A stretch of 64,000 nucleotides of DNA from Bdellovibrionales bacterium (GTDB lineage Bacteria; Myxococcota; XYA12-FULL-58-9; SYDY01). The position numbers were made by a program, and so were the translations under genes. The stretch is taken from positions 1 through 64,000 of the forward strand of contig SYDY01000063.1 of assembly GCA_005801425.1 (NCBI GenBank). The letters are read 5' to 3'. Shown here one piece after another: positions 4,219 to 34,494 of this stretch (position 1 is its first letter; each line of letters starts with the position of its first letter). The notes under the pieces were generated by a model. It searched no databases. It worked only from the letters and a program-made list of their open reading frames with translations, and was not told the origin of the DNA.

Positions 4219-4275
4219 ACGTATTTGCCCCCAAGGGGCTTGATAGAATGCCACCGACGGGGCTGCAACTTCTTG

Positions 4276-14060: not shown

Positions 14061-14067
14061 ATCTCCT

Positions 14068-16318: not shown

Positions 16319-16764
16319 GAGCATGTCACTTTTGATGAAGAAAATGTAATACGACTGTGCCAAAAATAGCTGGTCACGATGACTAGAACGGCAAACAACG
16401 TCTGTGCCAAAACGGGATTCATACCTGCAAACTCCACGAGGGCCGGTAGTGCTGCAAGATTCACGAGGAAATACAGCACGTGAAACGTAAGAAACCCCCC
16501 GGACTCTCGTAGATAATTCCCTGAAGTTCTAAACACCAAAAATTTGTTGGTTAAAAAAGAGAATGCCACACAGAGCACTTGGCTGAGGACCAAGATTGTT
16601 AGGTAATGAAGCTTCAAGGGTTTCGTAAAAAAATAAAGTACAGGATAGGTTGTTAAACCTATGGCCGTGTTAAGCGCACCCGCCAAGAGAAATCTTATTT
16701 TTGTTTGATGCTCGCTTGCAAAATGTCTACAAACGCCCATGAAATTTCGCCATCGCCCCATCAC
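16315..16764 (-). CDS. GtrA-like small flippase family protein
   Basis: A 149-residue protein with four predicted membrane helices. It starts with a basic segment, followed by RFLLAGALNTAIGLTTYPVL, and contains TNKFLVFR, the GtrA-family N-K-x-x-x-F-R motif. GtrA proteins are thought to flip polyprenyl-phosphate sugars to the periplasm for side-chain glycosylation. It lies between the TPP enzyme and the methyltransferase with tight overlaps, and its usual partner GtrB is two genes on. Confidence 0.9.
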   Translation of the reverse strand: MMGRWRNFMGVCRHFASEHQTKIRFLLAGALNTAIGLTTYPVLYFFTKPLKLHYLTILVLSQVLCVAFSFLTNKFLVFRTSGNYLRESGGFLTFHVLYFLVNLAALPALVEFAGMNPVLAQTLFAVLVIVTSYFWHSRITFSSSKVTCS

Positions 16765-18566
16765 TAATCCTCGATCATGTCTATCAGCATGTTCTCTCGC
16801 AACTCTTCCCGAGAAAGAAATGGTGACAAATCTTCAAGGGGTGGGGAAGTAATGCGTCCATCCGGCCACTGCTTGGCCCCAAGCTTCGGTGCAAAGGACA
16901 GATTTTCGTCCAACATCACTTCACATACTGCCGGACCACTCACCGCCAGGGTGCCAGCAATGGCCTGAGCCATGTCTTCATGATTCGCACAACGACGGAA
17001 AGGCAAACCGAAACCTTCACTGAGGCGAGCAAAGTCAGGGAACGTCACGCCGCTCTTGGGGCCACCGCCCACTTCTACACCGCCAAAGAAATTGCGATGT
17101 GTCTGAAAAATGGAAACGTAACCACTGTTATTGAGAATGAAGATCTTAATCGGCAGATGGTTACCCACGATGGTTTGAAGTTCCTGAAGATTCATCATGA
17201 TGCTGCCATCACCGGCAAGACAAACGATAGGCTTATTGCCCGAACCCTTGCATGCACCAATCGCTCCCGGCAGATCATATCCCATGGTTGCACATCCGGA
17301 ATTTGTCCATAGGCGCTGGCCATGTTTTATTTCAGCCGTCTGAAAACTGACGACACACGCGGAGCCATTCGCCGATACAACGATTTGATCTTCTTCGAGT
17401 TGCCCAAACAGAGTTTTCATAAAGCAGTAAGGATTAACCCGATCATTGTTCCAATACTCTGGTAAAACCACCGGAAATCGACGCTGCCGTTCTTTGCACC
17501 ATGCCATCCATGATTGTTGATCCTGCGTAGGACCATCATAGGCCTGATTCGCAAGTACTGGCAGGAGATCGGCAAGATTTGCGAGTACAGGCATATCCGC
17601 CTTGACGGTGGGCTTGCGCATTTCGTTCTCGTCGATATCCACCCAGATCTTGTAGGCTTCACGTGCGAACGATTTCCAATTGTAGCTTACTTGACGAATG
17701 TTAAGTCGGCTGCCCAGGATAAGCAGAAGATCAGCATTTTGCACGGTAAAGTTACCAGCGCGATCCCCTATGGTGCCAGGACGCCCTGCATAGTTTGGGT
17801 GTGCATCCCAAAGCACGTCATGGGCATTCCAACCCGTAACAACCGGTATACCAAGCTTGTCCACCAAACGAATAAAGGCTTCGTGCTGGCCACTCAGGCG
17901 CACGCCACCGCCAGCGAATATAACGGGGCGTTTGGCTGTCGCTACTTTATCGAGAATAGCAGCGCTCGTTGCAGAGAGATCAGTGCGCTTCCAAGGCTCT
18001 TCAAGCTCTGCAGGATCGAACCCAGGCAAAGACTCAGGATCGATCTGTGCACCTTGGACATTCAATGGAATATCCAACCAACAAGGACCTGGACGTCCCG
18101 ACGTAGCCAGATACATGGCTTTTTCCAAGTGGTAACGAATGGTTTGAGGATCGGTCACCATGACGCAGTATTTCGTGATCGGACGCACCAATTCTTCGAT
18201 GTCGAGTTCCTGATCACCATACTGACGAAGAGGAAGACCGGTGCTGCGTACCGTTGTTTCCCATTTTACTTGACCAGACAGCACCAACATTCCAATCGAA
18301 TCAACAAAAGCACCGTAAACCCCGGTGATGGCATTGGTGCCGCCTGGTCCGGAAGTAATATTGACCACGGGCAAGCGGTTGGTGAGGCGATAGTAAGCTT
18401 CTGCTGCAATAGAACACGCCTGCTCATGATGGTTGAATATGCACTCAAGTTCTTTGTGGGTGCCAAGGGAGTGATTGAGGTGCATCGCACCACCACCGGT
18501 CACCATGAACACATGGCGGATCCCGTGTTCAACAACTTTTTGAGCAACATAGTCTGACAACTTCAT
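16764..18566 (-). CDS. Thiamine-pyrophosphate enzyme, acetolactate-synthase-like
   Basis: A 600-residue protein with the three domains of the ALS/pyruvate-decarboxylase family. The N-terminal Pyr domain has the activating Glu at HHEQ (Glu48). The central domain has VIFAGGGVRLSGQ. The C-terminal PP domain has LAGDGSIMMNLQELQT and ends the metal motif with NN. In O-antigen loci such enzymes can add a two-carbon unit to a keto-sugar, as YerE does in yersiniose synthesis. With CDP-glucose 4,6-dehydratase nearby this is plausible but inferred. The start at 18566 overlaps the epimerase stop as ATGA. Confidence 0.85.
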   Translation of the reverse strand: MKLSDYVAQKVVEHGIRHVFMVTGGGAMHLNHSLGTHKELECIFNHHEQACSIAAEAYYRLTNRLPVVNITSGPGGTNAITGVYGAFVDSIGMLVLSGQVKWETTVRSTGLPLRQYGDQELDIEELVRPITKYCVMVTDPQTIRYHLEKAMYLATSGRPGPCWLDIPLNVQGAQIDPESLPGFDPAELEEPWKRTDLSATSAAILDKVATAKRPVIFAGGGVRLSGQHEAFIRLVDKLGIPVVTGWNAHDVLWDAHPNYAGRPGTIGDRAGNFTVQNADLLLILGSRLNIRQVSYNWKSFAREAYKIWVDIDENEMRKPTVKADMPVLANLADLLPVLANQAYDGPTQDQQSWMAWCKERQRRFPVVLPEYWNNDRVNPYCFMKTLFGQLEEDQIVVSANGSACVVSFQTAEIKHGQRLWTNSGCATMGYDLPGAIGACKGSGNKPIVCLAGDGSIMMNLQELQTIVGNHLPIKIFILNNSGYVSIFQTHRNFFGGVEVGGGPKSGVTFPDFARLSEGFGLPFRRCANHEDMAQAIAGTLAVSGPAVCEVMLDENLSFAPKLGAKQWPDGRITSPPLEDLSPFLSREELRENMLIDMIED

Positions 18567-19660
18567 GTTTTTTTCCCCATCCAACCATTCCACATTGCCG
18601 TTCTGGATATTGCATCGTCTAAGGAAACGGTTTTGTGCAATCCAAGATCTTTACCGATAAGAGAAGTATCCGGTACGTACCGACCAGGATTCCAGCCCGT
18701 ATCTTGGGCGCCTAAAACTTGGTGATCCCCATTTCCAAGCACATGAGAAATTTTTTGGGCCAAATCACGAATAGAGATCGATTGATCAGATCCCACATTG
18801 TAAGGCTTGCCTGATTGCGCCCTCACCAGCATATGCCAAAGCCAAACCGTCAGATCAGATGCGTAAAGATAAGATCGACAGGGCAGGCCATTGCCATTCA
18901 CGATCACAGGCTCGCCTTGCATGGCGTTGCGAATAAAATTTCCTGCCGCAAAATGAATGTCCAAAGATAAATACGGACCAAGCAAGGCAAAAATACGGGC
19001 AATCGCAATCTGAGTACCAAACTGTTTGGCATAAATCGCACACAACATTTCAGCCGCACGCTTGCCCTCTGCGTAGGCCGCACGTGGATCGGTACAACTG
19101 GGGGCACCTATCCAGTCCTCTGCGACCCGCTCCATTTCCCAGGGCTGCTGACCATACACTGCACCAGAACTTAAGAAGAGCGTACGATCCACTTTTTTTT
19201 CCACAGCGAAATCCAAAGCCATACGCGTCCCTTGGATGACAGTGTCGAACATGCGTCGTGGATTTGTTTCATTGAGGTGGGCACTCGCATCCGTGGCGGC
19301 ATGAATAAGATGCGTAAACTCACCCTTCGGCATCTCAAAATTACAAACATCACCTGCGATAAAATGGAACCCGGGATAATCGGCCAGGTGGGGCGCCTTA
19401 CAACGAAATACTTGGGGATCCCGTGTCAGGATGGTGGCATGCACACCAAGGTCAAGACGATTGTTAACATAGCGCAAACTTTCCAGAAGCCAACAACCGA
19501 TAAAACCAGTACCTCCCGTAATAAACAGGCGCGCTCCACGCAATGCCGGCCAAAGAGAAGCCGTCTTCTCAAACACATCGTTAAGATCGTTGCTAAAGGA
19601 CCAATATGCCGCATGAGAGCTTTCACCGCGTAATGGCTGGATAGACTCTTCCTGGAGCAT
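18563..19660 (-). CDS. NAD-dependent nucleotide-sugar epimerase/dehydratase/reductase (extended SDR)
   Basis: A 365-residue protein with an unusual 40-residue N-terminal extension before the Rossmann motif FITGGTGFIGCWLLE. The active site is visible as FLSSGAVYG and AYAEGKRAAE (Tyr-x-x-x-Lys). YNVGSDQSISIRDLAQKI is the C-terminal nucleotide-sugar region. It is coupled to the TPP enzyme by a 4-base ATGA overlap, so it probably acts on the same sugar nucleotide, perhaps reducing or epimerising the branched product. Exact reaction unknown. Confidence 0.87.
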   Translation of the reverse strand: MLQEESIQPLRGESSHAAYWSFSNDLNDVFEKTASLWPALRGARLFITGGTGFIGCWLLESLRYVNNRLDLGVHATILTRDPQVFRCKAPHLADYPGFHFIAGDVCNFEMPKGEFTHLIHAATDASAHLNETNPRRMFDTVIQGTRMALDFAVEKKVDRTLFLSSGAVYGQQPWEMERVAEDWIGAPSCTDPRAAYAEGKRAAEMLCAIYAKQFGTQIAIARIFALLGPYLSLDIHFAAGNFIRNAMQGEPVIVNGNGLPCRSYLYASDLTVWLWHMLVRAQSGKPYNVGSDQSISIRDLAQKISHVLGNGDHQVLGAQDTGWNPGRYVPDTSLIGKDLGLHKTVSLDDAISRTAMWNGWMGKKT

Positions 19661-19722
19661 TGATTCGCTTATTACTCGAACGTGTCATACATTACCAAAA
19701 TCGTGCGAATGCAAAATATCGC

Positions 19723-21768
19723 TCATTCACAGACTTCGATTGCGCTATTGAGCCGTTTTTCAAGACCTTCTGCACCCATTTCAATATTCTGTAACATGGG
19801 CGTTCCAAATGCATACATTGCAAACAAAGATGATTCGCTCAATTTCGGTAGCGGAATATCCCTTGAATGTGGGTATTCTTTGCGCACCAAATAGTGTGTC
19901 CATCCCAGTTGTTTTGCGTAGCACAAGATAGAATCGTCCCAAAGTGTGGCACCTAGTACTCTTTCTTGAAGTGCGACAGCATGATCAACCGCCGGAGAGT
20001 TACCCGTCGCGTTACTTGCAAACATGGCATGCCCATAGATGCTGGTAGGCTCTTCAAAAGATAACTTGCGCTTGGTCTTGTATGGCCTTTGGAGACTGTT
20101 GGATACTATAAGGCTTCCCTCGTATGGGATCACAGAAAGTACCGTTGCCAGTTTTGTTTCGAAACGAAATAGGGTTGTTCTCAATGGTTTTTGTGATGCG
20201 TATACACGGAAATGTGCTCGCAAGGACAATACAGCCATACATATCGCCAGTATTTTGAACAAGCCGATAGCGTAAGGTTGCAATCTATTCTTGGATAGTG
20301 TGAGACGTTCGATGCATAATGCAACATAAAGCGGCCACCCAATACGAAAGGCCGGAAGTGATGCTTGCAAGATATTGTAATCAGAGATCGGGATCTCAGC
20401 GCCATAATCCATGAAAATGAACATGTTAGGGAAAAGCATAGGAAATGCCAGGAGGCTGAGAATTAACGCACGCTGGGATTCTTTCGTGCGCCAGCGCTTG
20501 ATGACCAAATCCAGCACGACAACGCCTAAGAAAGCGTAGCTGACCATCAAAGCCAATATGCGTGGCGAGGTAAACGGCGCAAAGGATCGCAGATGGTATC
20601 CTAAATACAGTTCTAGGTGTATGTCACCTCTTTGACTTGAGGATGTGAGCCATATTGTCGCAATCGCGGTCCCGATCGACACCATGAGAGGCCATGCACT
20701 CGCAAAGCGTGGTATCGTGGTTGAATACCTTTTGCTATACCAATAAAGAAGCGACCAAGCTCCAACAGCAGCACCCATCCCAGGAAATTGAGGCTGTTTC
20801 GCCAGTGCAATTCCAAAAAGAAAAAAAGATAAACGGCCCAGGCACACCCATTGTTCACGTGCTTTCTTTTCCGTTTGAAAACAATCAATGGTGAGAACAA
20901 CCACCATACAAAGAAACAAACCATACATAGTGACAGGTGCATGATACTGGACCCACAATGGAGATATTGTCGGTCCGAAGGCATCGTGATTGGAACTAAA
21001 CAAATCGATGACTACATTTTTAATTTCGCTCAATCTTTCCATCGGGAGTAGCCACCCGATGAGAGGTACACACCATCGCATGCGATCACTTATTTTCCAG
21101 CGCTCCAGAATGACATAGAGAACAGCGGCTGATGCAAATATGGTAGTATACACAGAGGTCATCAAATACACCGTTCGAGGTGCTGCCTGAGTCATTTGTG
21201 CAATCGTGACTGCCCAAATTTGAACCAAGAAATGTCCCTCATTAAGAAACCCCTGATTGACGAGGGACTTGGGCGGGTAACCTGTGTTGTGTAAGAAAGA
21301 CAGCCCTTGTTGGAGATGCGTGATATTGTCTCCCGTTTTAAGCGGATAGTGGGTAAGCGCTGGAGCACCTTCCATGGATGCGTAAATATATCCCGCGAAC
21401 GCGACCAAACACGTGAACGCATACAATGCATCCCATGGCGTAATATTGATCCGGTTCGTTATGTTAAACGGACGAGATAAAGCGAGAGCCACACCTACGA
21501 CAGTCAGTGCTGTCGCTGCGTGGCCTATTTCAATGCCAAACTTTGCGCATACAATAGCCAGCCCGCCCATGGGCAAAACGCCAAGGCCGAGAGAGACCAT
21601 CGCTTTTACGAAGCTTAGGTCTTCCTGCCAACCCATGAACCAAGCACTCGGCACCAGCATACCAAACATCATGACCAGGAAAAGTTTGCAAGCGACGAGA
21701 ACGCCTGTACCTGATGCAATGGATGTCGACCCGGCAAGAAATAAAACCACTGCGATTGCCATGGTCAT
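19723..21768 (-). CDS. Large polytopic membrane protein of the glycan locus (polymerase or GT-C-like)
   Basis: A 681-residue protein with about twelve predicted membrane segments over residues 1-540 and a soluble C-terminal tail of about 140 residues. The periplasmic-side stretch TGDNITHLQQGLSFL and the layout suggest a GT-C transferase or an O-antigen polymerase, but no signature is decisive. Its C-terminal 27 residues are duplicated as a remnant at 9086-9170. It follows the SGNH gene in the same direction after a 62-base gap, which contains a weak TAGCAA/TTGCTA hairpin at 21792-21808. Confidence 0.7.
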   Translation of the reverse strand: MTMAIAVVLFLAGSTSIASGTGVLVACKLFLVMMFGMLVPSAWFMGWQEDLSFVKAMVSLGLGVLPMGGLAIVCAKFGIEIGHAATALTVVGVALALSRPFNITNRINITPWDALYAFTCLVAFAGYIYASMEGAPALTHYPLKTGDNITHLQQGLSFLHNTGYPPKSLVNQGFLNEGHFLVQIWAVTIAQMTQAAPRTVYLMTSVYTTIFASAAVLYVILERWKISDRMRWCVPLIGWLLPMERLSEIKNVVIDLFSSNHDAFGPTISPLWVQYHAPVTMYGLFLCMVVVLTIDCFQTEKKAREQWVCLGRLSFFLFGIALAKQPQFPGMGAAVGAWSLLYWYSKRYSTTIPRFASAWPLMVSIGTAIATIWLTSSSQRGDIHLELYLGYHLRSFAPFTSPRILALMVSYAFLGVVVLDLVIKRWRTKESQRALILSLLAFPMLFPNMFIFMDYGAEIPISDYNILQASLPAFRIGWPLYVALCIERLTLSKNRLQPYAIGLFKILAICMAVLSLRAHFRVYASQKPLRTTLFRFETKLATVLSVIPYEGSLIVSNSLQRPYKTKRKLSFEEPTSIYGHAMFASNATGNSPAVDHAVALQERVLGATLWDDSILCYAKQLGWTHYLVRKEYPHSRDIPLPKLSESSLFAMYAFGTPMLQNIEMGAEGLEKRLNSAIEVCE

Positions 21769-21830: not shown

Positions 21831-22832
21831 TTATTTTTGGCTGAAAAATGAGGATGATTCGAGAGAATCAAAACGCTTAAAGGTTGGTTTGACGATGTCA
21901 CTATTGAGTATCGTGCTAAATTTAGAAGCCCCGATGGCATTGAGATGATCGACCATATATGTGAAGTCTTCAAGGGCAAATCGCGGATCATCGGAATAAT
22001 CGTGAAACTCAATCTGATGTTTTTCAGCGAAATCACCCAATGATTTTTTAAATAGAGCATAAAGATCTGGATTTAAATTTTCGCGATAAGAGCCATGAGT
22101 CGGCATCTCGATTATGATTGGCATAATCCCACGTGCTTTTGTGGCGACGATAATCTTTTTCCAGTATTCGAGATTCTTTGTATAGAGATTGCTTTGCGTC
22201 ATACTGTGTGCCTTGGCTGCATCCGGCCCCACATTCGCTTTAAGTGATCCGAATTCACGCCCGCCATCAAACCAGCCACTGGGTTGTGGCTCATTATCTA
22301 CCTTGGTGTTAAAACGATCCAGGACATATCGGTAGACGTTGTCGCCAAAGAGAGCGATCTTGCTGAAATTCTTGGCGTCGAAGAGATATCCCCAATGCAT
22401 CAACTGCTCAGCGGATGGCTCAAGACGAAGTCCATAATACTGGCTGTAAAAATACATTCGAAAATCTTGTGATGAGGTGGGTCCAAGTTCGGTGCCCATC
22501 GTATAGAAAATGGCTGGAAGAATGATGATCTTTAGGTTCGGCATTCGTGGCATATATTTCATCGCCAATGCTTGGTCGTAATACATGCTCTGGGCGAGGT
22601 TTGCGAGATTGTAACCTTTTCTTTCGAAGCGATCGGGATTGATTCCATAGTATGCATTTGAAGAACCAAGGGTCAGAATTTCAATTTCAGAAAGTTGATT
22701 TTCTAAAGCAATTCGCTTGGTAAAATAACTTGTGTTCATCGAATATAGATGGAATTCAAGAATGCCAAGTATGACTGCGGCTGGCAGTAACAATAATACG
22801 ATTTTGTAAACAAGTGCTCTTTGCATGGTCAT
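21831..22832 (-). CDS. Membrane-anchored SGNH-hydrolase-like protein (AlgX/DltD-like partner of MBOAT)
   Basis: A 333-residue protein with one N-terminal membrane anchor (about 8-28). An SGNH-like fold is suggested by ILTLGSSNAYYGINP (block I Ser57/58) near residue 52 and DHLNAIGASKFS near residue 300 (block V His). Proteins of this kind work with MBOAT acyltransferases to move acyl groups onto extracellular glycans. The MBOAT gene ends 9 bases upstream of this start, in the same direction. The catalytic assignment is inference from motifs. Confidence 0.75.
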   Translation of the reverse strand: MTMQRALVYKIVLLLLPAAVILGILEFHLYSMNTSYFTKRIALENQLSEIEILTLGSSNAYYGINPDRFERKGYNLANLAQSMYYDQALAMKYMPRMPNLKIIILPAIFYTMGTELGPTSSQDFRMYFYSQYYGLRLEPSAEQLMHWGYLFDAKNFSKIALFGDNVYRYVLDRFNTKVDNEPQPSGWFDGGREFGSLKANVGPDAAKAHSMTQSNLYTKNLEYWKKIIVATKARGIMPIIIEMPTHGSYRENLNPDLYALFKKSLGDFAEKHQIEFHDYSDDPRFALEDFTYMVDHLNAIGASKFSTILNSDIVKPTFKRFDSLESSSFFSQK

Positions 22833-22841
22833 CCGGTTCCG

Positions 22842-24308
22842 TTAAAATTGAAAGTAGATGAAGTCTTGCTTCTTGAACCAAATCCCGAAGAGCACGAGTG
22901 CAAATACCGACCCCTGATAGATTGGCCAGCGGACCCACCACGGACGATCTGCAATGATGACATCGAAGTTGAGCCGTGGTTTGAGCATCATGAAAAACTC
23001 AAGCCCCAAAAGCGCAGACATTAGGCCAAGGCAAAAATAGAAGTCAGTTCTTGCGCTTAAAAATTCATGGGCCTTACGTAGAGACAAAAATTGATAGGCA
23101 TTTTGATTGGGTTTAAATAGATGCGTAAGAATGTAGGACGCATCGCCCAAGGTTTTCGCGCGAAAAAAAATATAAGTGAGGCTCACAAAGCAAAACGTGA
23201 ATGCGATGCTTAAGCCGTCAAAGAGTGCGGATGGTAGGACCTTTGCCAATTTTTTCCGAGGCTTGGCCCAGAGCATCTCGAGCGAGAGAGCCGTACCATG
23301 CAAGAGACCCCAAAATACAAAATTCCAACTTGCGCCGTGCCACAGGCCGCTGATGAGAAAAGTCGTCATCAGTGCGACAATGATCCCTGTCTTCCCCCAA
23401 TCGCGCAAATGCAGCGAAATAGGCTCGTAGATATAATCACGCAACCAGGTTGAGAGAGATATATGCCAACGCTTCCAGAACTCGGCGAGAGTTTTGGAAG
23501 TGTAAGGTCGGTCGAAATTTTTCATGAGTGTAAAACCCATGGTTCGGGCTGTGCCAATCGCGATGTCAGAATAGCCTGAGAAATCACAATAGATTTGCAC
23601 TGTAAAAAATGCTGTTGCTAACAAAAGTGGTAGACCGGCAAAAGTTCCCGGTTTATCGAAAATGGGATTCACAAATTGTGCCAGACGATCGGCGATCACA
23701 ACCTTCTTGAAAAGTCCCCAAGCGATGAGTCTGAGGCCGCTCGTGAACATCTGGTAATTAAAATCGTGCTTTTCATGAAACTGATGCAAAAGATTTTGAG
23801 GTCTTTCAATCGGTCCGGCAACAAGCTGTGGATAGAACATCACATAGAGTGCGTAGATACCGAAATGTCGTTCAGGCTTAAAATTCCCGCGATAGACTTC
23901 AATGACGTAGCTCAAGCTCTGGAAGGTATGAAATGAAAGCCCAATGGGAAGAATAATTTCGAGTACTGGGAGGGAGTAGTTCCAATGCAGAAGCTTGGCC
24001 ACGTCATTAACGTTTAAAACAAAGAAATTAAAATACTTGAAGAAAAAGAGAATCAAACACGTAACAACAATGCTGACGAAGAAAAGCAACTGACGCACGC
24101 GTCCATGAGTTTTAACGATCCACAGGGCTGCAAAGTAATCAACGATTATGGTGGCAGCCAGAATCAAAATGTATTTCGGCACGAACGACATATAAAAAAA
24201 GCAACTCGCACTGAGCAGGATCGGCCAACGAAAGCGATGCGGTACCGCAAAGTAAAGTATCGTGACGATGGGAAAAAAAACGCAGAACGCCCAGGAATTA
24301 AATAACAT
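22842..24308 (-). CDS. MBOAT-family O-acyltransferase (AlgI-like)
   Basis: A 488-residue polytopic membrane protein of normal length for the family. Visible are LPIGLSFHTFQSLSYVIEVY, MFYPQLVAGPIERP, YCDFSGYSDIAIG, EFWKRWHISLSTWLRDY and the catalytic-His motif SGLWHGASWNF. AlgI-type proteins bring an acyl group across the inner membrane for O-acylation of polysaccharides. The start overlaps the end of the SDR gene by 11 bases, a sign of translational coupling. The upstream FkbH, ACP and MaoC genes may supply an unusual acyl-ACP donor. Confidence 0.95.
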   Translation of the reverse strand: MLFNSWAFCVFFPIVTILYFAVPHRFRWPILLSASCFFYMSFVPKYILILAATIIVDYFAALWIVKTHGRVRQLLFFVSIVVTCLILFFFKYFNFFVLNVNDVAKLLHWNYSLPVLEIILPIGLSFHTFQSLSYVIEVYRGNFKPERHFGIYALYVMFYPQLVAGPIERPQNLLHQFHEKHDFNYQMFTSGLRLIAWGLFKKVVIADRLAQFVNPIFDKPGTFAGLPLLLATAFFTVQIYCDFSGYSDIAIGTARTMGFTLMKNFDRPYTSKTLAEFWKRWHISLSTWLRDYIYEPISLHLRDWGKTGIIVALMTTFLISGLWHGASWNFVFWGLLHGTALSLEMLWAKPRKKLAKVLPSALFDGLSIAFTFCFVSLTYIFFRAKTLGDASYILTHLFKPNQNAYQFLSLRKAHEFLSARTDFYFCLGLMSALLGLEFFMMLKPRLNFDVIIADRPWWVRWPIYQGSVFALVLFGIWFKKQDFIYFQF

Positions 24309-25026
24309 CAGCGCCTCCGTTCATGATGATGTTGGCGCCATTGATGTGTGGACTTGCACGAACTAGAAATTCGATCGTGTCGGCCACCTCTTGTGGGGTG
24401 ATCAGGGCTTTTAAGGGATGCGCTTCGATCATCTCGGCGATGACTCGTTCGTCGACATCAGATGTCAGCTGAGTTTGCATTAAAGAAGGGGATACGCAGC
24501 ATGAGGTGATATTGTGGCGCGCATTCTCCACGCACCAAGATTTACTCATTGAGGCCAAATAGGCCTTGTTGGCGACGTACTCGGCAAGACCCGTCGGTGG
24601 TCGGTTAATCAAGTAAGACGTCAGCACGTTGATTATTTTTCCTGATTTTTTCTTACGAAAAGCCAAAATGGCCTGCTGCGTGATCTGCACTGTCGGCAGA
24701 ACATTATGAACAAAGCTGGTTTGAAATGCGGCAGGTTCAGTTTTGTGAAAATGCTTGGTTATCAAGCCTGTCCACGCATTATTGATCAGTACATCAAGTC
24801 CTAGATCGGGGATCTGCATAAGGAGAAGATGGAGACTTTCTGGGTCTGTAAAGTCACAGTGCAAAGCTTTGGCTTGAGGGAACTCATGTTCAATTCGTGT
24901 CGCAGCTTCAAGGGAACGATTGTAGGTGAAAAATACCCGGTTGTCAGATGAGCGCACGAGACTTCTCGTGATCGCTTCACCAAGACTGGAAGCTCCCCCA
25001 GTAATGAGTATTCTTCTCGAGTACAT
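24298..25026 (-). CDS. Short-chain dehydrogenase/reductase (3-oxoacyl-ACP reductase-like)
   Basis: A 242-residue SDR. The cofactor motif is ITGGASSLGEAI, with LINNAWTG as the NNAG counterpart. The catalytic Ser, Tyr and Lys are present (VLTSYLIN and EYVANKAYL). It overlaps the MaoC gene stop by one base (TAATG). Between an ACP/MaoC pair and MBOAT it probably reduces a beta-keto or aldehyde group of an acyl-ACP, but this is inference from position. Confidence 0.88.
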   Translation of the reverse strand: MYSRRILITGGASSLGEAITRSLVRSSDNRVFFTYNRSLEAATRIEHEFPQAKALHCDFTDPESLHLLLMQIPDLGLDVLINNAWTGLITKHFHKTEPAAFQTSFVHNVLPTVQITQQAILAFRKKKSGKIINVLTSYLINRPPTGLAEYVANKAYLASMSKSWCVENARHNITSCCVSPSLMQTQLTSDVDERVIAEMIEAHPLKALITPQEVADTIEFLVRASPHINGANIIMNGGADVI

Positions 25027-25418
25027 TATGAAAGAACTCCCACTTGCAGTCGCCCTTTGGCAACGTTGGTTCCGCTTTCATTTTGAAATTGAAATTTAAA
25101 CTCCAGTGCACCGACAGAATCGAAGATACCTGAAATTTCGGCTTGTAGCTTCAGCCGGTCGCCCATGTAGACCGGTTTTGCAAATTTGATTTCTTGTGAA
25201 TGGATAATAACATTGCGGATCGGAAGGCATTCTCCGACGAAATAGGACAGGAAACCGTTGAGAATATTTCCATGCATGACTTCGCTTTGAAATCCCTTGG
25301 CTCTTGCGAACGCGCCATCCGTGTGAAGTTCATTGCGATCGCGGAATATTTCGATAAAGCCGTGATAGACGACTTTGGTGATTTCGAAGTCCTGCGTAAA
25401 TCGATCACCTAGCTTCAT
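25026..25418 (-). CDS. MaoC-like hotdog-fold dehydratase
   Basis: A 130-residue single hotdog domain. The central helix region FARAKGFQSEVMHGNILNGFLSYFVGE resembles R-specific enoyl-CoA/ACP hydratases, with a His in VMHG at the catalytic position. I chose ATG 25418, which lies 13 bases after the ACP stop. It would hydrate or dehydrate an acyl group carried by the adjacent ACP. Catalytic Asp/His geometry cannot be proven from sequence alone. Confidence 0.82.
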   Translation of the reverse strand: MKLGDRFTQDFEITKVVYHGFIEIFRDRNELHTDGAFARAKGFQSEVMHGNILNGFLSYFVGECLPIRNVIIHSQEIKFAKPVYMGDRLKLQAEISGIFDSVGALEFKFQFQNESGTNVAKGRLQVGVLS

Positions 25419-25431
25419 TTTCGTCGTCCAG

Positions 25432-25686
25432 TCATGCGCTGATCGCTCTGAGCGAATTTGCGAGTGCATCGCACATTTCACCGACATTTTTCCAAGATCG
25501 GATCTCTTGTGAAGTAAATTTCACTTTGAAATGTTTCTCAATTCCAACCACAAGCTGAATGTGATTGAGTGAGTCCCAATCCTCAACGTCTGCTGCGGTT
25601 GTCTCGCGTGATAATACGATGGCCTCATTGTCGAGGACATCAATGAAAATTTTGTTCACGTCCTGCATCACTTGTTCGCTATTCAT
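25432..25686 (-). CDS. Acyl carrier protein
   Basis: An 84-residue ACP with the phosphopantetheine attachment Ser39 in EDWDSLNHIQLVVGIE, the canonical DSL motif. It is acidic and of normal size. Its ATG overlaps the FkbH stop by one base (TAATG), so the two are almost certainly made together. FkbH-type enzymes load a glyceryl unit onto a cognate ACP, making this the likely carrier of the module. Confidence 0.95.
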   Translation of the reverse strand: MNSEQVMQDVNKIFIDVLDNEAIVLSRETTAADVEDWDSLNHIQLVVGIEKHFKVKFTSQEIRSWKNVGEMCDALANSLRAISA

Positions 25687-27416
25687 TAGAGACTCCCAGA
25701 ATATTCGATAAAGGTAGCACGGGCCTGGCTTTGCGGCACATCAAGAATCCATCTTCCATCTGCCATGGGGGTAAAGTCGAGCTTGAGGTAGTGATCTTTC
25801 ACCAAAGCATTTTTTGGCGTTGGAAGATATTCTCCGATGATTTCGTTGAACCCAATCTCTTTCGCTGCCTGTATTATTTTATTGAGCACCAGACATTCAA
25901 CGCCGCGCTTAAGAACTCGGCAGCTCATGATCCAAGTATCAATAAAAAGACTTTTCTCAATTTTTTTGAGAATTACGGCGCTGATCAATCCATGGTCGCC
26001 AAACTTGTCTTTGAGGCTAAACGATCCATGGAAATACTCATTTGATTTAGCCACTTTCCTGACTTCGTCTTCTGAATACCTGACCGTACGCAAATTGAAT
26101 TGGTTAGATCTTTGAATCAGTTGAGCGACACGTGGAATATCAAAATCAAGAAATGGCTTGATTGTGCAGGTCATGTTGAGACTTTTTAAAAAATCATTTT
26201 CGTTCGTAAACGACTTTTGAAGTACAACACGTTTGGCTTCTTCGTGAAATTGTCGGGTCCGATGTTCATCCTCATCAGTGAATGATGCCGTTTCAAAGAG
26301 GTTGAGACTTCGGAGAAACGGCATGTATTCAGCCGGATCTTCGGGGAGCTCGGGCACAGTGACGTCAGGCAGGTGTTCCCGAACGACGTTTCTTTCAAAT
26401 GGATTGTCGTCGACAAAGACCATCGAATCATAGCCGATGTTGAGAAAATTTTTGATAGAGTTGATATTGTCAACTTTGCTGTCCCAGTTGGCCACGAAGA
26501 TGGATATATCCTCTAAGCGCAAAACCATATCGGGATGTTTTTCAAACGGTTCTTTGGCGATTTCTTCATTGTTCTTGCTGCAGACGGCGAGCAGGATGCC
26601 GCGTTCTTTGAGTTGCTTGGCCCAGGCTTGAAGTTCAGAAAAGGCTTTGCCCATGCCGAGATCGCCAATTTCAATGGATTGGATCCCATCATCACCAATG
26701 ATTCCACCCCAAATCGTATTGTCCAGATCGAGAATCAGACATTTTTTAAAGACGCCGCTATTGGCCAGCATGATATCGAGAATGCTTTTGGCAAGGGAAG
26801 GGATGAAATCCAGGCTAAAAACCATATCAGCTTCGATATAATTTCTCATATCAAAAACGTGATTTATTCCGAAGCGGTTTTGAAGAAGCGAGACATCGCA
26901 AATAAAGAGATTCTTCGTTTCGCGGGCCAGCTCCATGAGCTCAAAATTGAGTTTACGCAATTGATAGATGAATGATGTCGAAGTCTTGTTTGAGAAATTC
27001 CCAAAAACCGAGTCGTCCAGTTCTGGAAAGTTAAAGCAAATAACTTTTGCTCGTAAACCCTTGTCGCGCATGATTTCGAGCCAGTCAGAAACTTTATTTT
27101 TCTGATTCTCGGCGAAACTCGTCTTCCCTGCCTTATCCTCTTGGTAGAATGATTTTAAAAGTTTGGTTGTACTTTGAAATAAGACCAAAAATTCCGGGTC
27201 AAACTGATAGAGCTCAGAAGAGTTATCGGTGATCTGCTGTTCTATCTGATTGTAATCGGCCTCAAAAATTTCAAGGTTCTGACCCACTTCATAGCCATAG
27301 CCGCGCAGCGCTTGATTAAGAAACTGCGTTGAACTATCACCCAAGAGAGCAACGCGTGTTTTCTTGAGGCCAGAAAAATCTTTTTTGAGATTTTTTTTAA
27401 GCTCAAAGAATCGCAT
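25686..27416 (-). CDS. FkbH-like HAD-IIIC enzyme (glyceryl-ACP forming type)
   Basis: A 576-residue three-part protein. The N-terminal SGNH-like region has LLGDSSTQFL (about 24-34). The HAD domain has LDLDNTIWGGIIGDDG (motif I, Asp230/Asp232) and FVDDNPFERN. The C-terminal GNAT-like region has QRSNQFNLRTVRYSEDEV. FkbH proteins take a three-carbon unit from 1,3-bisphosphoglycerate and place it on an ACP; close relatives occur in O-antigen loci. Together with ACP, MaoC, SDR and MBOAT it forms a compact acyl-making module. Confidence 0.93.
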   Translation of the reverse strand: MRFFELKKNLKKDFSGLKKTRVALLGDSSTQFLNQALRGYGYEVGQNLEIFEADYNQIEQQITDNSSELYQFDPEFLVLFQSTTKLLKSFYQEDKAGKTSFAENQKNKVSDWLEIMRDKGLRAKVICFNFPELDDSVFGNFSNKTSTSFIYQLRKLNFELMELARETKNLFICDVSLLQNRFGINHVFDMRNYIEADMVFSLDFIPSLAKSILDIMLANSGVFKKCLILDLDNTIWGGIIGDDGIQSIEIGDLGMGKAFSELQAWAKQLKERGILLAVCSKNNEEIAKEPFEKHPDMVLRLEDISIFVANWDSKVDNINSIKNFLNIGYDSMVFVDDNPFERNVVREHLPDVTVPELPEDPAEYMPFLRSLNLFETASFTDEDEHRTRQFHEEAKRVVLQKSFTNENDFLKSLNMTCTIKPFLDFDIPRVAQLIQRSNQFNLRTVRYSEDEVRKVAKSNEYFHGSFSLKDKFGDHGLISAVILKKIEKSLFIDTWIMSCRVLKRGVECLVLNKIIQAAKEIGFNEIIGEYLPTPKNALVKDHYLKLDFTPMADGRWILDVPQSQARATFIEYSGSL

Positions 27417-27455: not shown

Positions 27456-28274
27456 CTAAGCAACATGCCGCGTAACATTGGTTTTCAATAAATTCCAACG
27501 GGCTTCAAGCATCTCAATTCGTTTATTATCCTCCCGCTCGATCAACCCATAGTACTCACGTTTATTCAAAAGCCACAAAAGTTCGAAGTGCACAGCAAGC
27601 AGGAGTCCTTGCTCTAAATTTTTGATATCGAGCGCGTTGCTTGAAAAAATCACTTTGCGTGTCTCGAAGCGGGTGAGATGAACACTCTCCATTTTTCGAA
27701 GTGCAGGGAGCGCATCAATTCCCACGCCTCCGCCCACAACATAATCAAAGTTCTTTGCCTTGCATGCCTTCGCCACATTTAACACATAATTGGTAATAGG
27801 ATCCGTATTGATTGCTTCACGTGTCAAATTATGGGAGAGCGAAAAATCCACACGACCAAAGACCACACCATCCACGCCATCTGGACGTGAAGCTTCTGCC
27901 ATCAACGCATCCAATTGATTGTAGGCATTAATCGTTTCTAGATTAAAGAGGAACTGGGTATCCTCCCGCTCCTCAGCCGAGTAAACTTTATTTTTTGCAT
28001 CAATAAATTTTGATAGTGCGTAGGGAGATTCAATCATAGGCGCGATAATGTATTCGACACCAAGCTGCTTGCTTTCGAGCAAATCACGAACAGCCTCGCA
28101 TCCCCCGATTTTCAGGCCAACATTAAGCCCTGCTTTTCTCGAAATTTCATTTAAGCGAAGAAATTCTTCAATGCGCGTTCCTTCTGCTTCAAACTCAGCC
28201 TTAACCCCATCATAGCCGTATTCTTCTTTGCCTCTTCGAAGAATATTCAGCATGTCTCTTTCATATTTGTTCAC
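27456..28274 (-). CDS. HpcH/HpaI (CitE-like) aldolase/lyase family protein
   Basis: A 272-residue TIM-barrel protein of the HpcH/HpaI and citrate-lyase-beta superfamily. Seen are [11 protein letters not shown] (substrate Arg region), [38 protein letters not shown] (metal-binding Glu) and FGRVDFSLS (metal-binding Asp). It starts with a GTG at 28274, preceded by a GGGGGGG run at a six-base spacing. It lies between the DHQS-like gene and FkbH. The family joins or cleaves pyruvate-type units, so it may make a keto-acid precursor, but the substrate is not known. Confidence 0.85.
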
Positions 28275-28330: not shown

Positions 28331-29446
28331 CTATTTTATCGCCAGATAATTTTTTATTAAGGTAGGGTCGGCAAGCCGATGAATAGCGGCACGGAAAGCC
28401 GCTTTAATCGCTGAGCGTCCTTCTTCGGTACGCGCAATTGACACAAGCTCAAGGGAACCATCACCTTTAGGTATTACGATACGATATTGATCTGCGTGGT
28501 GCTTTTTGTCGTTGTCGAATTTTTCCATAAAGACGTCAATATCCAATCTACGCAATTCTTCGGCAAGCGGTGGCAACTCTCTCAGCAGTTGTTCTATATG
28601 AGTAGTAAGTTGCAGAACACATTCGGATCCCGTGGCAGTTAGAAATCCACGTTGTTTGGCATACTCATGCGCCACCACCATACCTACGCCAACAGCAACG
28701 CCATGGGTAATTCTGAATTCTGTTGCAGACTCAATCGCATGGCCAAAAGTATGACCAAAATTGAGCAATAAACGTTCCTTTTTGTCAAACTCGTCAATCT
28801 CAATAAACCACTGCTTGGCTTTAATACTACGAACGATAATTCGCTCGGCTTGAAGTGCTGACATCTTAATGGCAGGCGATTCAGCCAAATAAAGATCATA
28901 CTCGTGAGAAGAACGTGCATAGCAAATTTTGGCTGCCTCACAAAGACCGCCAACGATCTGTTCTGCGTTAAGGCTACGCAAGAAATCCAGATCAATCATC
29001 ACTTCGGCAGGCGGGTAAAAATTGCCGACCAGATTTTTATAACTGTACACATTGATTGATGATTTACCGCCCACGCATGAGTCAACCATACTAAGCAGCG
29101 TTGTCGGAAAATAGGTCCAAGCAATGCCACGCATGTAAATAGAGGCAACGAAGGTCGCAATATCTTGGATAACTCCACCGCCAAGAGCCAGAAGATGCGT
29201 GCGGCGATGTGCACCCAATTCACGAAGTTTTGCAATGATTGGCGCGATTTGCTCAAGCGACTTGCTGCCCTCAAGCGCAGGGACAGCAATCACCTTTCCA
29301 ATACCTGTTGGCAATATGCCCGAAAAATACGCATCCGTTAAAATGACCACGTCTTCACGTGCCCGCAATGCTTCAGTCAGAAGACCTCTTCCAGTAGACA
29401 CGCGGTAGCAACCTGAAGAAGTGCTAATGTCAAAGGATTCGGGCAT
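28331..29446 (-). CDS. 3-dehydroquinate synthase-like sugar phosphate cyclase
   Basis: A 371-residue protein of the DHQS superfamily. It has [24 protein letters not shown] (NAD region), [41 protein letters not shown] and DNDKKHHA, so the metal ligands and the lysines used by true AroB are kept. A second, ordinary AroB domain exists in the aroKB fusion at 42521-44149, so this copy is probably specialised for the glycan locus. The ATG at 29446 has TAGAGG at eight bases and overlaps the upstream SDR by 17 bases. Confidence 0.88.
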
Positions 29447-30143
29447 AGGAAAAACCTCTATCGGCAGCAATGAATTGACCTGTAATGCCTGTGTTCTCCG
29501 CAGAACACAGAAATCCAACCATGTTACTTACATCTTCAAGTGTGGGCAGCTTCCCCAGTGGCGTAAGCGCCTCCAGATTAGACACCTGTTCCATGCTCAG
29601 ATTTGCATGCGTCATAGGCGTATCCAGTGCGCCAGGAAGAACGGCATTCACCAAATGTCCTTCCCTGCCAAGATCAATGGCAAGCGACTGAACCAGGCCT
29701 TGTAAAGCAGACTTGCTCACGGTGTATGAGAGTTTGTTTTGACGGGCAATATTTTGCCAGATGGAACTGATGACACAAAGTCGAGATGGCGCGGCTAGCG
29801 AGCCATGTGCAAGTAATGCGTGCAGTGTCTTCATAATATACACCACATTGACACGATAAATGTCTTCGTGTGATGCCACATCAAACGTATGAATGTTATC
29901 ATTTAAATTTTGGCCTTGTGCCCATACGATGGCATTGAACGGCTGACATATTTCATTGGGTATTCCTTTATTTTCCGAAAAAGGATCCCACGATATCCAG
30001 TCCCCCCCCGATTTGGCATCCATCGGAGAAATAGATCGGGCAATCGCCGTGACTTCCCAATCGTGAACAAGAAACCACTTGGCAAGTGCTTTGCCTATTG
30101 ATCCAGATGCACCAAATATAAGTGATCTTTTCTTTCCGTTCAT
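29430..30143 (-). CDS. Short-chain dehydrogenase/reductase
   Basis: A 237-residue SDR with cofactor motif IFGASGSIGKALAKW, VWAQGQNLND in place of the usual NNAG, catalytic Ser in VISSIW, and LSYTVSKSAL (Tyr and Lys). It is the first gene of the long leftward glycan operon and is divergent from the ABC transporter operon. A G8 run (plus-strand C8 at 30002-30009) lies within the coding region at Ser-Gly-Gly-Asp and could make the gene slip. Probably acts with the DHQS-like enzyme. Confidence 0.88.
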   Translation of the reverse strand: MNGKKRSLIFGASGSIGKALAKWFLVHDWEVTAIARSISPMDAKSGGDWISWDPFSENKGIPNEICQPFNAIVWAQGQNLNDNIHTFDVASHEDIYRVNVVYIMKTLHALLAHGSLAAPSRLCVISSIWQNIARQNKLSYTVSKSALQGLVQSLAIDLGREGHLVNAVLPGALDTPMTHANLSMEQVSNLEALTPLGKLPTLEDVSNMVGFLCSAENTGITGQFIAADRGFSYARIL

Positions 30144-30249: not shown

Positions 30250-31182
30250 ATGCGTAGATCAATGATTGACGTCATGTGTTTGGGGAAGTCATACGACGGA
30301 ACACCGGCGCTTACAGACGTAAGTTTTAGTTTGCGTCCGGGCGAGCGTGTTGGGCTTGTAGGGGTCAACGGCGCAGGGAAGACAACGCTGCTACGTATAC
30401 TTGCGGGCGCAAGCATGCCCACGTCAGGAAGCGTCACCGTCTTTGGTGCGGATATCTCGCGCGATAGAGAACACGTTGCAGGCATGGTGGGTTTTTTGCC
30501 TGAAGTACCTCCCCTGTACCCTGATTTAACCGTTCGTGAATTTCTTCAATACGTGCTTGCGCTTCGTGGGATCGAAACCACAGGGACACTCATTGATGTG
30601 GCACTTCATGCCGTTGATATGATACCCGCATCCAACAAACGCATCGGTACACTCTCCTTGGGACAACGAAAACGCGTCGGCATTGCACAAGCTTTTGTGC
30701 ATCGTCCCAAATTGCTTTTGCTTGATGAACCGGGTTCAGGGCTTGATCCTATTCAGCTCGACCATTTGCGCACGATGTTACGACGATTGCATGGCATCAC
30801 TATGCTCATATCGAGCCATTTGCTCGGCGAGGTCCAAGAAACCTGCGATCGTGTTTTACTGCTCCACGAAGGACGCCTGGTTGAAGATATTTCATTGCAT
30901 GATATGCGTCAGCGGTGTCTGATGATGCTGGATGTTGTCTCGTCCTGCGATGCAGCCATCGACGTGTTGCGCGCAATCCCTGAATGCCATGTGCTGTCGA
31001 TCATGAACAAATCGCGTGCTACATCTGAAATACGGATTGTGATCCCCAAAAAAATGCGCACAGCATTGTTGCAACATTTGATAACATCCGGTGTTGTTTT
31101 AGAAGGCTATCGTGCCGATCCCACCGAATTGGGGGACCGTTTGCGCGATGTCGCCAAGGGGAGAATGCCTGCATGCGCGTAG
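30250..31182 (+). CDS. ABC transporter ATP-binding protein (GldA/CcmA-like)
   Basis: A 310-residue ATPase. It has Walker A VNGAGKTTLLR, the Q-loop replaced by GFLPEVPPLYPDLTVREF, signature LSLGQRKRVGIAQAF, Walker B LLLLDEPGSGLDP and the H-loop in ISSHLLGEV. An extra C-terminal domain of about 90 residues follows. ATG 30262 (MIDV) may be the true start, as most homologues begin there. It overlaps the permease gene by 10 bases. With the next three genes it forms a GldA-F-G-like export or gliding-type ABC set. Confidence 0.9.
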   Translation: MRRSMIDVMCLGKSYDGTPALTDVSFSLRPGERVGLVGVNGAGKTTLLRILAGASMPTSGSVTVFGADISRDREHVAGMVGFLPEVPPLYPDLTVREFLQYVLALRGIETTGTLIDVALHAVDMIPASNKRIGTLSLGQRKRVGIAQAFVHRPKLLLLDEPGSGLDPIQLDHLRTMLRRLHGITMLISSHLLGEVQETCDRVLLLHEGRLVEDISLHDMRQRCLMMLDVVSSCDAAIDVLRAIPECHVLSIMNKSRATSEIRIVIPKKMRTALLQHLITSGVVLEGYRADPTELGDRLRDVAKGRMPACA

Positions 31183-31892
31183 TTCGTGCGATTTGTGAAC
31201 GTGAACTCTGGGGTTACCTGCGCACGCCCATGGGATATGGGGTGATGCTGACGGTCCTTTTGATAGACGGTATTTTATTCAATGTTTGGGCCATTGGTGA
31301 TGGGCATCGGCGATCGGCAGAAGCACTCGAAGTCTTTTTCTTTGTGGCCAGCGGCCCCACAGTTGTTGCCTCCGTGCTTTTGGCCATGCATTTGATCGCC
31401 GATGAGCGTCAGCGCGGTACCCTTATTATTTTAGAAACCGCCCCACTTTCAGGATGGCAAATTGTGGGTGGTAAATTCCTCGCAGCGTTAACCATATTGG
31501 GAATTATTCATTTGCTCTCCATCACGATGCCAGCGCTTATCTATGCGTATGGCCGTGTATCCATCATGCATATCGTCATGGGCTATCTTGGACTTACGCT
31601 GCTAGGCGCTGCCACTTTGGCCATTGCGCTTTGCGCTTCGGCATTTGCACAAACATCCTTGATTGCAGCCATTACCGGTGGCGCACTCGTGGTGGTCCTT
31701 GTCTGTTTGCATGGCGTGGCACAACTTGCATCGCCACCTATGGATAGTGTGTTGTCGTATCTTTCGCTGATCCATGAACATTATAGGCCGTTCATGCGTG
31801 GTGTTTTAAGCATACGTGCGATGGCATTTTACATTTCACTGACGCTGCTTGCGCTTTTGGTTGCGGCACGACGCATGGAGTGGCGAACGTGA
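31173..31892 (+). CDS. ABC-2 type permease (GldF-like)
   Basis: A 239-residue protein with about six membrane segments. The N-terminal ICERELWGYLRTPMGY and ADERQRGTLIILETAPLSGWQIVGGKF are the typical ABC-2/GldF coupling stretch. It overlaps the ATPase gene on the left and the next gene on the right (GTGA), so all are cotranslated. Substrate unknown. Confidence 0.88.
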   Translation: MRVVRAICERELWGYLRTPMGYGVMLTVLLIDGILFNVWAIGDGHRRSAEALEVFFFVASGPTVVASVLLAMHLIADERQRGTLIILETAPLSGWQIVGGKFLAALTILGIIHLLSITMPALIYAYGRVSIMHIVMGYLGLTLLGAATLAIALCASAFAQTSLIAAITGGALVVVLVCLHGVAQLASPPMDSVLSYLSLIHEHYRPFMRGVLSIRAMAFYISLTLLALLVAARRMEWRT

Positions 31893-33616: not shown

Positions 33617-34494
33617 AAAAAAATCTTTATTTTCACGCACTTTTTATGTTCTTAGTTGTGGGTTTGGCCGTTGTTGCGCAACGTATTTCGTTGGCCCCTA
33701 AAGATCCTCAAAAAATATTTGTGATGCATATTGAGCTGTCAGAGATCACATCACTGGCTTATGCAGAAGGCACTTCTCGTGTGGTCATAGAACGGGTAAA
33801 CACGGGCTGGCGCGTGAGATTGCGCGATGTGTTTCCTGCATCCCAGGTTGCAACCACGTTGCTGGAAGACTTGGCACATCTGCCAGCAGTTCGTGATCTT
33901 GGCGTGCTTTCTGATGCCAAAACATTGGCCGAAATGGGACTTGCTCCTGCAAAGGGTTTACTACACATCAAACATGGGCAACACACCACGGTTTTTTCAC
34001 TCGGCGACGTGGACGGATCAGGACGCACACAATACATGCAAAATGCGCAAGGACAGGTATTTACCGTCTTGGCGCGCTATTTGATGCCGCTCAAGCATAG
34101 TGTGAACGAATTGCAAGATCGCCGTGTGGCGTGGCTTGCACGCGATCACTTACGTCAAGTGGATATTGCATATCGAGGCCAAACATTCAGCGTACTTAAC
34201 CATGACGATGCATTGACGACTTCTCCAGGAAATCCGCCGGAGATCATGCCATGGGTGGAGTCGATATTTCGTATTCAGGTGGAGTCCATGGCCGACGACG
34301 TTGTGTTTCCTCCCTCCGATGACATTATTGAACTGTCGTTTCAAGGCGATATGCAGCCTGCAAAAGTACGCTTTTGGCATAGGGATGATGGTCGTGTGTT
34401 GGTTGAATCGTCACGAAGTCTTGAGCCTATGTGGCTATCAGTGCAGGCCTCAGAAAAAGTGTGGGAAGTAACATCTCTGTTTACTCGCTCTTAG
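33613..34494 (+). CDS. DUF4340-like membrane-anchored protein
   Basis: A 293-residue protein with one N-terminal membrane helix (about 5-25). The rest is periplasmic and has the DUF4340 pattern: LAEMGLAPAKGLLHIKHG, FSLGDVDGSGRTQYM and GQVFTVLARYLM. Genes of this family regularly follow GldG-like genes. The ATG at 33613 makes an ATGA overlap with the upstream stop. The 3' end overlaps the convergent orn gene by 14 bases. Function unknown. Confidence 0.82.
   Translation: MKKNLYFHALFMFLVVGLAVVAQRISLAPKDPQKIFVMHIELSEITSLAYAEGTSRVVIERVNTGWRVRLRDVFPASQVATTLLEDLAHLPAVRDLGVLSDAKTLAEMGLAPAKGLLHIKHGQHTTVFSLGDVDGSGRTQYMQNAQGQVFTVLARYLMPLKHSVNELQDRRVAWLARDHLRQVDIAYRGQTFSVLNHDDALTTSPGNPPEIMPWVESIFRIQVESMADDVVFPPSDDIIELSFQGDMQPAKVRFWHRDDGRVLVESSRSLEPMWLSVQASEKVWEVTSLFTRS

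Follow-up and report, generated by a model that had tools for sequence, protein, structure and literature searches.

The question raised by this locus is what a run of six genes, encoding an FkbH-type protein, an acyl carrier protein (ACP), a MaoC-type protein, a short-chain dehydrogenase/reductase (SDR), an MBOAT protein, and an SGNH protein, does within a surface-glycan locus of the 64,000-nucleotide stretch analysed here (the window). Our analysis indicates that the six genes very probably form a glycan O-acylation module. The fuller reading, to which we give a slight preference, is a self-contained, Dlt-like O-acylation system for the surface glycan in which the carrier would be charged by FkbH instead of DltA.

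Gene order and products of the cassette

The FkbH, ACP, MaoC, SDR, MBOAT, and SGNH genes all lie on the minus strand and follow one another head to tail; neighbours are separated by at most 13 bases or overlap by at most 11. FkbH and ACP overlap by 1 base, as do MaoC and SDR, while SDR and MBOAT overlap by 11 bases and MBOAT and SGNH are separated by 9 bases. The earliest in-frame start codon of the MaoC open reading frame, at position 25487, is premature, as homologues start at the ATG at 25418; moving the start accordingly leaves a 13-base gap between ACP and MaoC instead of a 56-base overlap. The sequence-only reading had described six consecutive, near-touching or overlapping genes of these families, and all of them were found, with junctions from −11 to +13 bases; its range of 24298–27416 holds for FkbH to SDR, while MBOAT and SGNH lie at 21831–24308.

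The first gene (25686–27416) encodes a putative glyceryl-ACP synthase of 576 amino acids composed of an FkbH_N domain, a HAD-IIIC domain, and a GNAT-like C-terminal part (Pfam, NCBIfam). It scored 241 bits against FkbH_N and 309.6 bits against TIGR01686 (cut-off 146.65), and its closest solved chain was 3SLR, the BF1531 protein of Bacteroides fragilis. Each of the catalytic residues Asp230 and Asp232 (HAD) and Cys499 (SCR) is shared by at least 95% of the 81 close relatives; among distant relatives, some of which lie within NRPS proteins, they occur in 29/30, 29/30, and 30/30, respectively. The protein therefore bears the marks of its family, namely a HAD-IIIC/FkbH domain above the curated cut-off, invariant residues, and a dedicated ACP alongside. 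This ACP (25432–25686; 84 amino acids) matched PF00550 above the cut-off and carries its phosphopantetheine serine, Ser39, in a WDSL motif; the residue is kept in all 78 relatives. Given this family membership and the kept catalytic residues, FkbH probably loads a glyceryl unit derived from 1,3-bisphosphoglycerate.

The third gene (25026–25418; PF01575) encodes a putative MaoC-type hot-dog thioester dehydratase of 130 amino acids. Its D-x-N-x-x-H motif is present, the proline of D-x-N-P-x-H being replaced by glutamate in the window protein only, and the D and H of the dyad (D50/H55 in the numbering of the 153-amino-acid open reading frame) are kept in 37/37 sequences. The structure model (pLDDT 96) had an (R)-hydratase, 1IQ6, as its top fold match (TM 0.86–0.88); hydratases led the ranking, and the first thioesterase appeared at rank 47. 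A thioesterase function was rejected because the protein matches hydratases in both fold and sequence and its D/H dyad does not vary among the relatives. The gene that follows (24298–25026; PF13561/PF00106) encodes a FabG-like SDR of 242 amino acids with Y150 and K154, both kept in 35/35 relatives; the window SDR also has the catalytic Ser137, in whose place 9 of these relatives have Ala, Glu, or Asp.

Regarding the export half, the fifth gene (22842–24308) encodes a DltB-like MBOAT of 488 amino acids that matched PF03062 and reached 176 bits against TIGR04091, which is under the equivalog cut-off of 375. Its catalytic His324 occurs in 69/69 non-gap alignment rows. The last gene (21831–22832) encodes an SGNH/DltD-like protein of 333 amino acids with an N-terminal membrane helix. 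The Pfam scan gave no match for this protein, which was assigned by its GxS and H motifs and its likeness to DltD/GDSL proteins; Ser58 and His296 are kept in 60/60 sequences, and profile matches were GDSL acylhydrolases and DltD. The solved structures closest to the MBOAT were DltB (6BUG, 8JEM), and the top Foldseek matches of the SGNH protein were DltD, though with a low whole-chain TM of about 0.4, with PatB also among its fold matches. On account of these closest relatives, the export half resembles D-alanylation, and the likeness to AlgI/AlgX suggested earlier proved less close than that to DltB/DltD.

Recurrence and interchange across genomes

For comparison, the 80 closest FkbH loci, mostly from Bacteroidota, were collected, and counts rest on the 65 of them with at least 4.5 kb of downstream sequence. 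ACP was found near FkbH in 64/65 loci, MBOAT in 55/65, and SGNH in 51/65; 10/65 lacked a same-strand MBOAT within reach. The gap between SDR and the following MBOAT has a median of 5 bases, and the 12 unbroken loci contain no additional genes between FkbH and SGNH. Dozens of genomes share this order, and its median gaps range from −4 to +5 bases, which argues against a chance arrangement and disposes of the concern that the genes might always be separated elsewhere. The six-gene set is thus a mobile cassette widespread over several bacterial phyla and no local accident, and the acylation module is not peculiar to the window locus; Flavobacterium and Mucilaginibacter are among its carriers.

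MaoC and SDR behave as a unit: both were present in 28 of the 65 loci, neither in 34, and only one in 3 (Fisher p 6e-15). In four distant loci (L148, L149, L150, and L117), one of them in another phylum, they form a single fused polypeptide beside FkbH-ACP. A reciprocal search showed that every close MaoC homologue adjoins FkbH, including the single one (L142) found in 396 evenly sampled genomes. It is likely that MaoC and SDR work in sequence on the ACP-bound acyl loaded by FkbH. The fusion loci L148 and L149 have different neighbouring genes; together with the 10 loci without MBOAT, this indicates that the acyl-ACP is not coupled to MBOAT everywhere.

When mapped on the FkbH tree, MaoC presence required 25 changes, at least 13 of them forced by supported branches, and its clustering did not exceed that of shuffled labels; on the MBOAT tree, 19 changes were required, at least 12 of them forced. 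Such repeated gain and loss on both trees points to a single core with exchangeable tailoring. L099 and L112, and likewise L111 and L115, are pairs whose FkbH proteins are almost identical and of which one has MaoC-SDR and the other lacks it. In other loci, the MaoC-SDR pair is replaced by VOC (epimerase-like) or methyltransferase genes, both of which are compatible with a glyceryl thioester. VOC genes occurred in 0/29 loci with MaoC and in 13/36 without it (p 2.6e-4). No sorting of the MBOAT tree by tailoring type was seen, and hence there is no sign of acyl selectivity in MBOAT; reading such selectivity off the tree was rejected, its groups not following the tailoring.

Proposed acyl route and competing explanations

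In the proposed route, FkbH would transfer the glyceryl unit of 1,3-bisphosphoglycerate onto the 4'-phosphopantetheine arm of the ACP. MaoC would then remove the C3 hydroxyl of glyceryl-ACP to give 2-hydroxyacryloyl-ACP, i.e., pyruvyl-ACP in its keto form, and the SDR would reduce the keto group to yield lactyl-ACP; this step is suggested by a near-obligate pair that is sometimes fused and is swapped within an otherwise unchanged core. Judging from the structural relatives, the DltB-like MBOAT may accept the acyl from the ACP and move it over the inner membrane, where the DltD/PatB-like SGNH protein would esterify a hydroxyl of the glycan built by the surrounding genes. We put the chance that the end acyl is lactyl at about even. 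The sequence-only reading had proposed that a custom glycerate- or lactate-derived, ACP-bound acyl decorates the glycan. The constancy of the core, the pairing and fusions of MaoC-SDR, the kept residues, and the DltB/DltD-like pair speak for this proposal, in which the FkbH substrate, the acyl product, and the acceptor glycan are those that we infer from sequence.

The same system could carry another glycerate-derived acyl (pyruvyl, 3-hydroxypropionyl, or glyceryl with an altered C2 configuration), which appears rather unlikely. The MaoC-SDR pair might act on any group loaded by FkbH, the position at which MaoC would dehydrate a 2,3-dihydroxyacyl thioester being a prediction, and the VOC protein, whose fold is common to methylmalonyl-CoA epimerase, takes the MaoC slot without ever accompanying MaoC, so that this slot could concern C2 stereochemistry. 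However, MaoC/(R)-hydratases take off the beta-hydroxyl together with the alpha proton, which would lead to enol-pyruvyl, and the dedicated, nearly always present SDR speaks against pyruvyl as the end product.

Two further explanations separate the FkbH chemistry from parts of the cassette, and both seem improbable. If MaoC and SDR served a fatty-acid-like cycle producing 3-hydroxybutyryl or crotonyl on the ACP, with FkbH acting elsewhere, MaoC plus a beta-ketoacyl reductase would be the usual set for such acyls, and Ilyobacter indeed has both within a thiolase/acyl-CoA dehydrogenase operon. Such a cycle predicts an optional FkbH beside a constant MaoC-SDR, whereas the reverse was observed; moreover, the window cassette has no ketosynthase or thiolase, and the 12 unbroken loci leave no room for one between FkbH and SGNH. 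Alternatively, the acyl-ACP might supply a cytoplasmic acyltransferase that modifies a nucleotide sugar, the nearby MBOAT-SGNH pair performing ordinary O-acetylation. Consistent with this, the gene after ACP was judged from its sequence to be GNAT-like in L039 and acyltransferase-3-like in L095, WcbI occurs in L117, and tandem MBOAT-SGNH pairs occur in L055 and L070. The window operon, however, has no match to another acyltransferase family, and the MBOAT follows the SDR closely (median gap 5 bases) and is present in 55/65 loci.

Returning to the FkbH-charged module, we tentatively suggest, at somewhat less than even likelihood, that a constant FkbH-ACP-MBOAT-SGNH core and its swappable inserts set the surface-glycan ester as glyceryl, lactyl, epimerised glyceryl, or O-methylglyceryl. 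The inserts would be MaoC-SDR, VOC, or one or two methyltransferases, and 1,3-bisphosphoglycerate from glycolysis would supply activated glyceryl across phyla without CoA or AMP activation. If true, the acyl ester could be predicted from the genes that lie between FkbH and MBOAT, a testable genetic code.

Relation to known systems and origin of the cassette

Like Dlt D-alanylation (DltA-DltC-DltB-DltD), the cassette combines a dedicated carrier protein, a DltB-like MBOAT, and a DltD-like SGNH protein in a single operon. It differs in that DltA charges the Dlt carrier, while here FkbH would do so and the operon has no AMP-binding gene, and in that the acceptor is teichoic acid in Dlt, while here the genes stand in a glycan locus with an additional MaoC-SDR step on the carrier. 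Scanning the proteins encoded between 11206 and 33616 gave no AMP-binding (DltA-type) match, and the scanned window proteins included no ketosynthase. The AlgI/AlgJ/AlgX and PatA/PatB O-acetylation systems likewise join MBOAT and SGNH for an extracellular glycan acceptor, with an acetyl donor and no FkbH-ACP. In the bryostatin BryA loading module, FkbH, DH, and KR produce D-lactyl. This module also places FkbH, a dehydratase, and a ketoreductase on a single carrier; in the window, the set meets as separate genes outside any polyketide synthase, with a MaoC-type rather than a PKS-type dehydratase.

Glyceryl-ACP synthesis by FkbH and ACP belongs to tetronate and methoxymalonyl polyketide pathways (PMC7489565), which share the discrete ACP and the invariant HAD and SCR residues; here, in contrast, there is no polyketide synthase, the product would pass to MBOAT/SGNH, and the closest solved relative is BF1531. 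The Campylobacter jejuni flagellar glycan locus contains an FkbH-domain gene, cj1302, and yields di-O-methylglyceryl pseudaminic acid, according to the portion of the article consulted (PMC7099621), and thus also has FkbH in a surface-glycan locus with sugars bearing a glycerate derivative. It differs in that the sugar is on flagellin and the gene proven necessary there is cj1295, and that portion does not describe a MaoC-SDR-MBOAT set. Within the open-access literature, subscription papers lying outside it, we found no FkbH joined with MBOAT or O-antigen and no description of the six-gene operon, and a link of FkbH with capsular polysaccharide appeared only in a paper on Campylobacter flagella and in a review of cyanobacterial natural products. 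If true, the reading would join FkbH glyceryl-ACP chemistry, known from polyketide biosynthesis, with DltB/DltD-like acyl export, so far handled separately, in a single route to varied surface glycans. BF1531, a protein of solved structure that is still called uncharacterized, would likewise gain a possible role, as would many genes whose only annotation is HAD-IIIC family phosphatase.

The genes around the cassette are also on the minus strand. Directly upstream is an HpcH/HpaI aldolase-like protein (27456–28274; PF03328), of which phmmer found no homologue in the 80 loci, placing it outside the recurring cassette. Further upstream, on the glycan side, lie an AroB-like putative sugar-phosphate cyclase (28331–29518; TIGR04425 292.6 bits, under the cut-off of 400) and, at the head of the run, a second SDR (29430–30143; PF13561). 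Downstream glycan genes (14442–21768; Pfam, NCBIfam) encode a large membrane protein, an NAD epimerase, a TPP enzyme, GtrA, a methyltransferase, and a GT2. The cassette has a GC content of 44% compared with 50% in its flanks, almost the lowest of window stretches of equal length. Relatives from its own phylum reach at most 36% over the full length (42% in a partial match), compared with up to 62% in Bacteroidota and others, and this difference, along with the low GC content, disfavours vertical inheritance inside the window's own phylum.

Organization of the cassette and its flanks

In the window, the cassette occupies positions 21831-27416 of the minus strand in the order FkbH, ACP, MaoC, SDR, MBOAT, and an SGNH-like gene, with close-packed junctions (overlaps of 1, 1, and 11 bases; gaps of 13 and 9 bases). 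A sequence-only reading had described a six-gene acyl module; all six genes are present in the order proposed, while its range of 24298-27416 leaves out MBOAT and SGNH. Comparison with homologues shifted the MaoC start from 25487 to 25418. Glycan genes on the same strand border the cassette on both sides, namely an AroB-like sugar-phosphate cyclase (TIGR04425; 28331-29518), an HpcH-like aldolase (27456-28274), and an SDR upstream, and a large membrane protein, an epimerase, an acetolactate-synthase-like TPP enzyme (16764-18593), GtrA, a methyltransferase, and a GT2 downstream. Genes encoding glucose-1-phosphate cytidylyltransferase and CDP-glucose 4,6-dehydratase, both exceeding the cut-off, were located at 9226-11117. 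Together with the AroB-like, HpcH-like, and TPP genes, they possibly provide an unusual branched or cyclised sugar of the same glycan. A nonulosonic-acid (legionaminic-like) gene set at 566-4254 comprises consecutive CBS-domain nucleotidyltransferase, UDP-GlcNAc 2-epimerase-like, and NeuB genes, adjoined by a radA-like gene, and a divergent Gld-like ABC transporter (ABC-2 permease and DUF4340 protein; 30250-34494) adjoins the operon.

A recurring cassette

When the window FkbH was used to scan a set of 84,980 species genomes once, 338 relatives were confirmed, and the best 80 (54-62% identity) were retained. These loci were picked on FkbH similarity only, so gene order played no part in the choice. 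Among the 65 loci with at least 4.5 kb downstream of FkbH, ACP was found nearby in 64, MBOAT in 55, SGNH in 51, MaoC in 29, and SDR in 30. An uninterrupted six-gene order was seen in 12 loci, an uninterrupted FkbH-ACP-MBOAT-SGNH order in 13, and canonical-order loci had median intergenic gaps of -4 to +5 bases. The locus sequences, 1.45 Mb in total, contained 36 MaoC homologues, every one within 4.5 kb of FkbH. The reverse search from MaoC agrees with this survey, since homologues with 45-59% identity adjoin FkbH, among them the sole non-central match (L142) in 396 evenly drawn genomes of the phylum of locus L084; remoter MaoC proteins, e.g., L122 and L125-L129, were not beside FkbH. The six-gene set is thus a recurring cassette.

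The core is present in Alphaproteobacteria as well, as ACP-FkbH-MBOAT-SGNH-VOC in Rhodobacteraceae SC52 and, on Sinorhizobium meliloti pSymB, as MBOAT, an ORF in the place of SGNH, ACP, and FkbH. In strain 1021 the pSymB FkbH match (L116, 6626-8733) is broken across two overlapping frames; other strains listed beside it have a single unbroken match. Flavobacterium paronense (L084, L087; genome G198) carries three near-identical MaoC-type cassettes. Locus L055 (875-8496) has three MBOAT genes, separated by SGNH genes, upstream of a single FkbH cassette, and one acyl-ACP may be common to several acyl transfers there.

MaoC-SDR and other inserts in the tailoring slot

The MaoC-SDR pair is exchangeable: both genes occurred in 28 of the 65 loci, neither in 34, and a single one in 3. 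On the FkbH tree, MaoC presence changed 25 times (at least 13 forced by well-supported branches) against 25.5 with shuffled labels, and is therefore essentially independent of FkbH ancestry. The MBOAT tree was concordant, with 19 changes (at least 12 forced), and showed no co-variation of MBOAT with tailoring type. Close neighbours on the FkbH tree differ in MaoC-SDR (L099 and L112; L111 and L115). In four loci whose FkbH is only 31-38% identical, MaoC-SDR forms a single polypeptide adjoining FkbH-ACP: L148, L149, and L150, from the phylum of the window, and L117 (Niveispirillum), where a WcbI gene intervenes.

Elsewhere, the slot is taken by a VOC protein (Glyoxalase_4), as in L086 (7543-7941), L051 (12892-13299), and L118 (10359-10787), which are candidate C2 epimerases of glyceryl-ACP. 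VOC never accompanied MaoC (0/29 loci with MaoC versus 13/36 without; p = 2.6e-4). In other loci the slot contains methyltransferases (Methyltransf_23; TylF-type in L061 and L092), either one or two per locus. The pairs in L061 (7632-9198) and L092 (11734-13322), with one TylF-like member and FkbH and ACP on either side, are candidate makers of a di-O-methylglyceryl group, known from Campylobacter flagellar sugars (PMC7099621). We infer that FkbH supplies a common ACP-bound acyl that the inserts then tailor.

Proposed acyl chemistry, export, and origin

FkbH enzymes convert 1,3-bisphosphoglycerate to glyceryl on ACP (as used in PMC7489565). The window FkbH exceeds the family cut-off and retains residues invariant in distant FkbH proteins, including D230, D232, and the SCR cysteine C499. 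The MaoC model (pLDDT 96) best matched the (R)-hydratases 1IQ6 and 5CPG, with D50 and H55 retained. By family chemistry, MaoC would remove the beta-hydroxyl from the 2,3-dihydroxypropionyl thioester, giving enol-pyruvyl and then pyruvyl, and the FabG-like SDR would reduce pyruvyl to lactyl. The predicted lactyl end product is the least secure part of this scheme. Such dehydration-then-reduction to lactyl is reportedly carried out by the BryA loading module of bryostatin synthesis.

The closest solved relatives of the MBOAT are DltB, and the SGNH model matched DltD first, followed by GDSL acylhydrolases and, lower, PatB, with low whole-chain TM; its family profile also matches GDSL acylhydrolases and DltD. 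The export half would consequently operate in the fashion of the D-alanylation (Dlt) system, with FkbH substituting for DltA. The cassette is not a Dlt system, since DltA, the enzyme that charges the carrier, is absent from the operon.

The window FkbH shares 62% identity with its best relatives, mostly Bacteroidota, versus at most 36% over full length with those found in its own phylum, and the GC content is 44% in the cassette versus 50% in the flanks, which suggests that the cassette was gained by transfer. Where the glycan locus ends, an rve transposase-core ORF accompanied by a short stretch resembling an IS3-type partner (13247-14300) is in keeping with horizontal acquisition.
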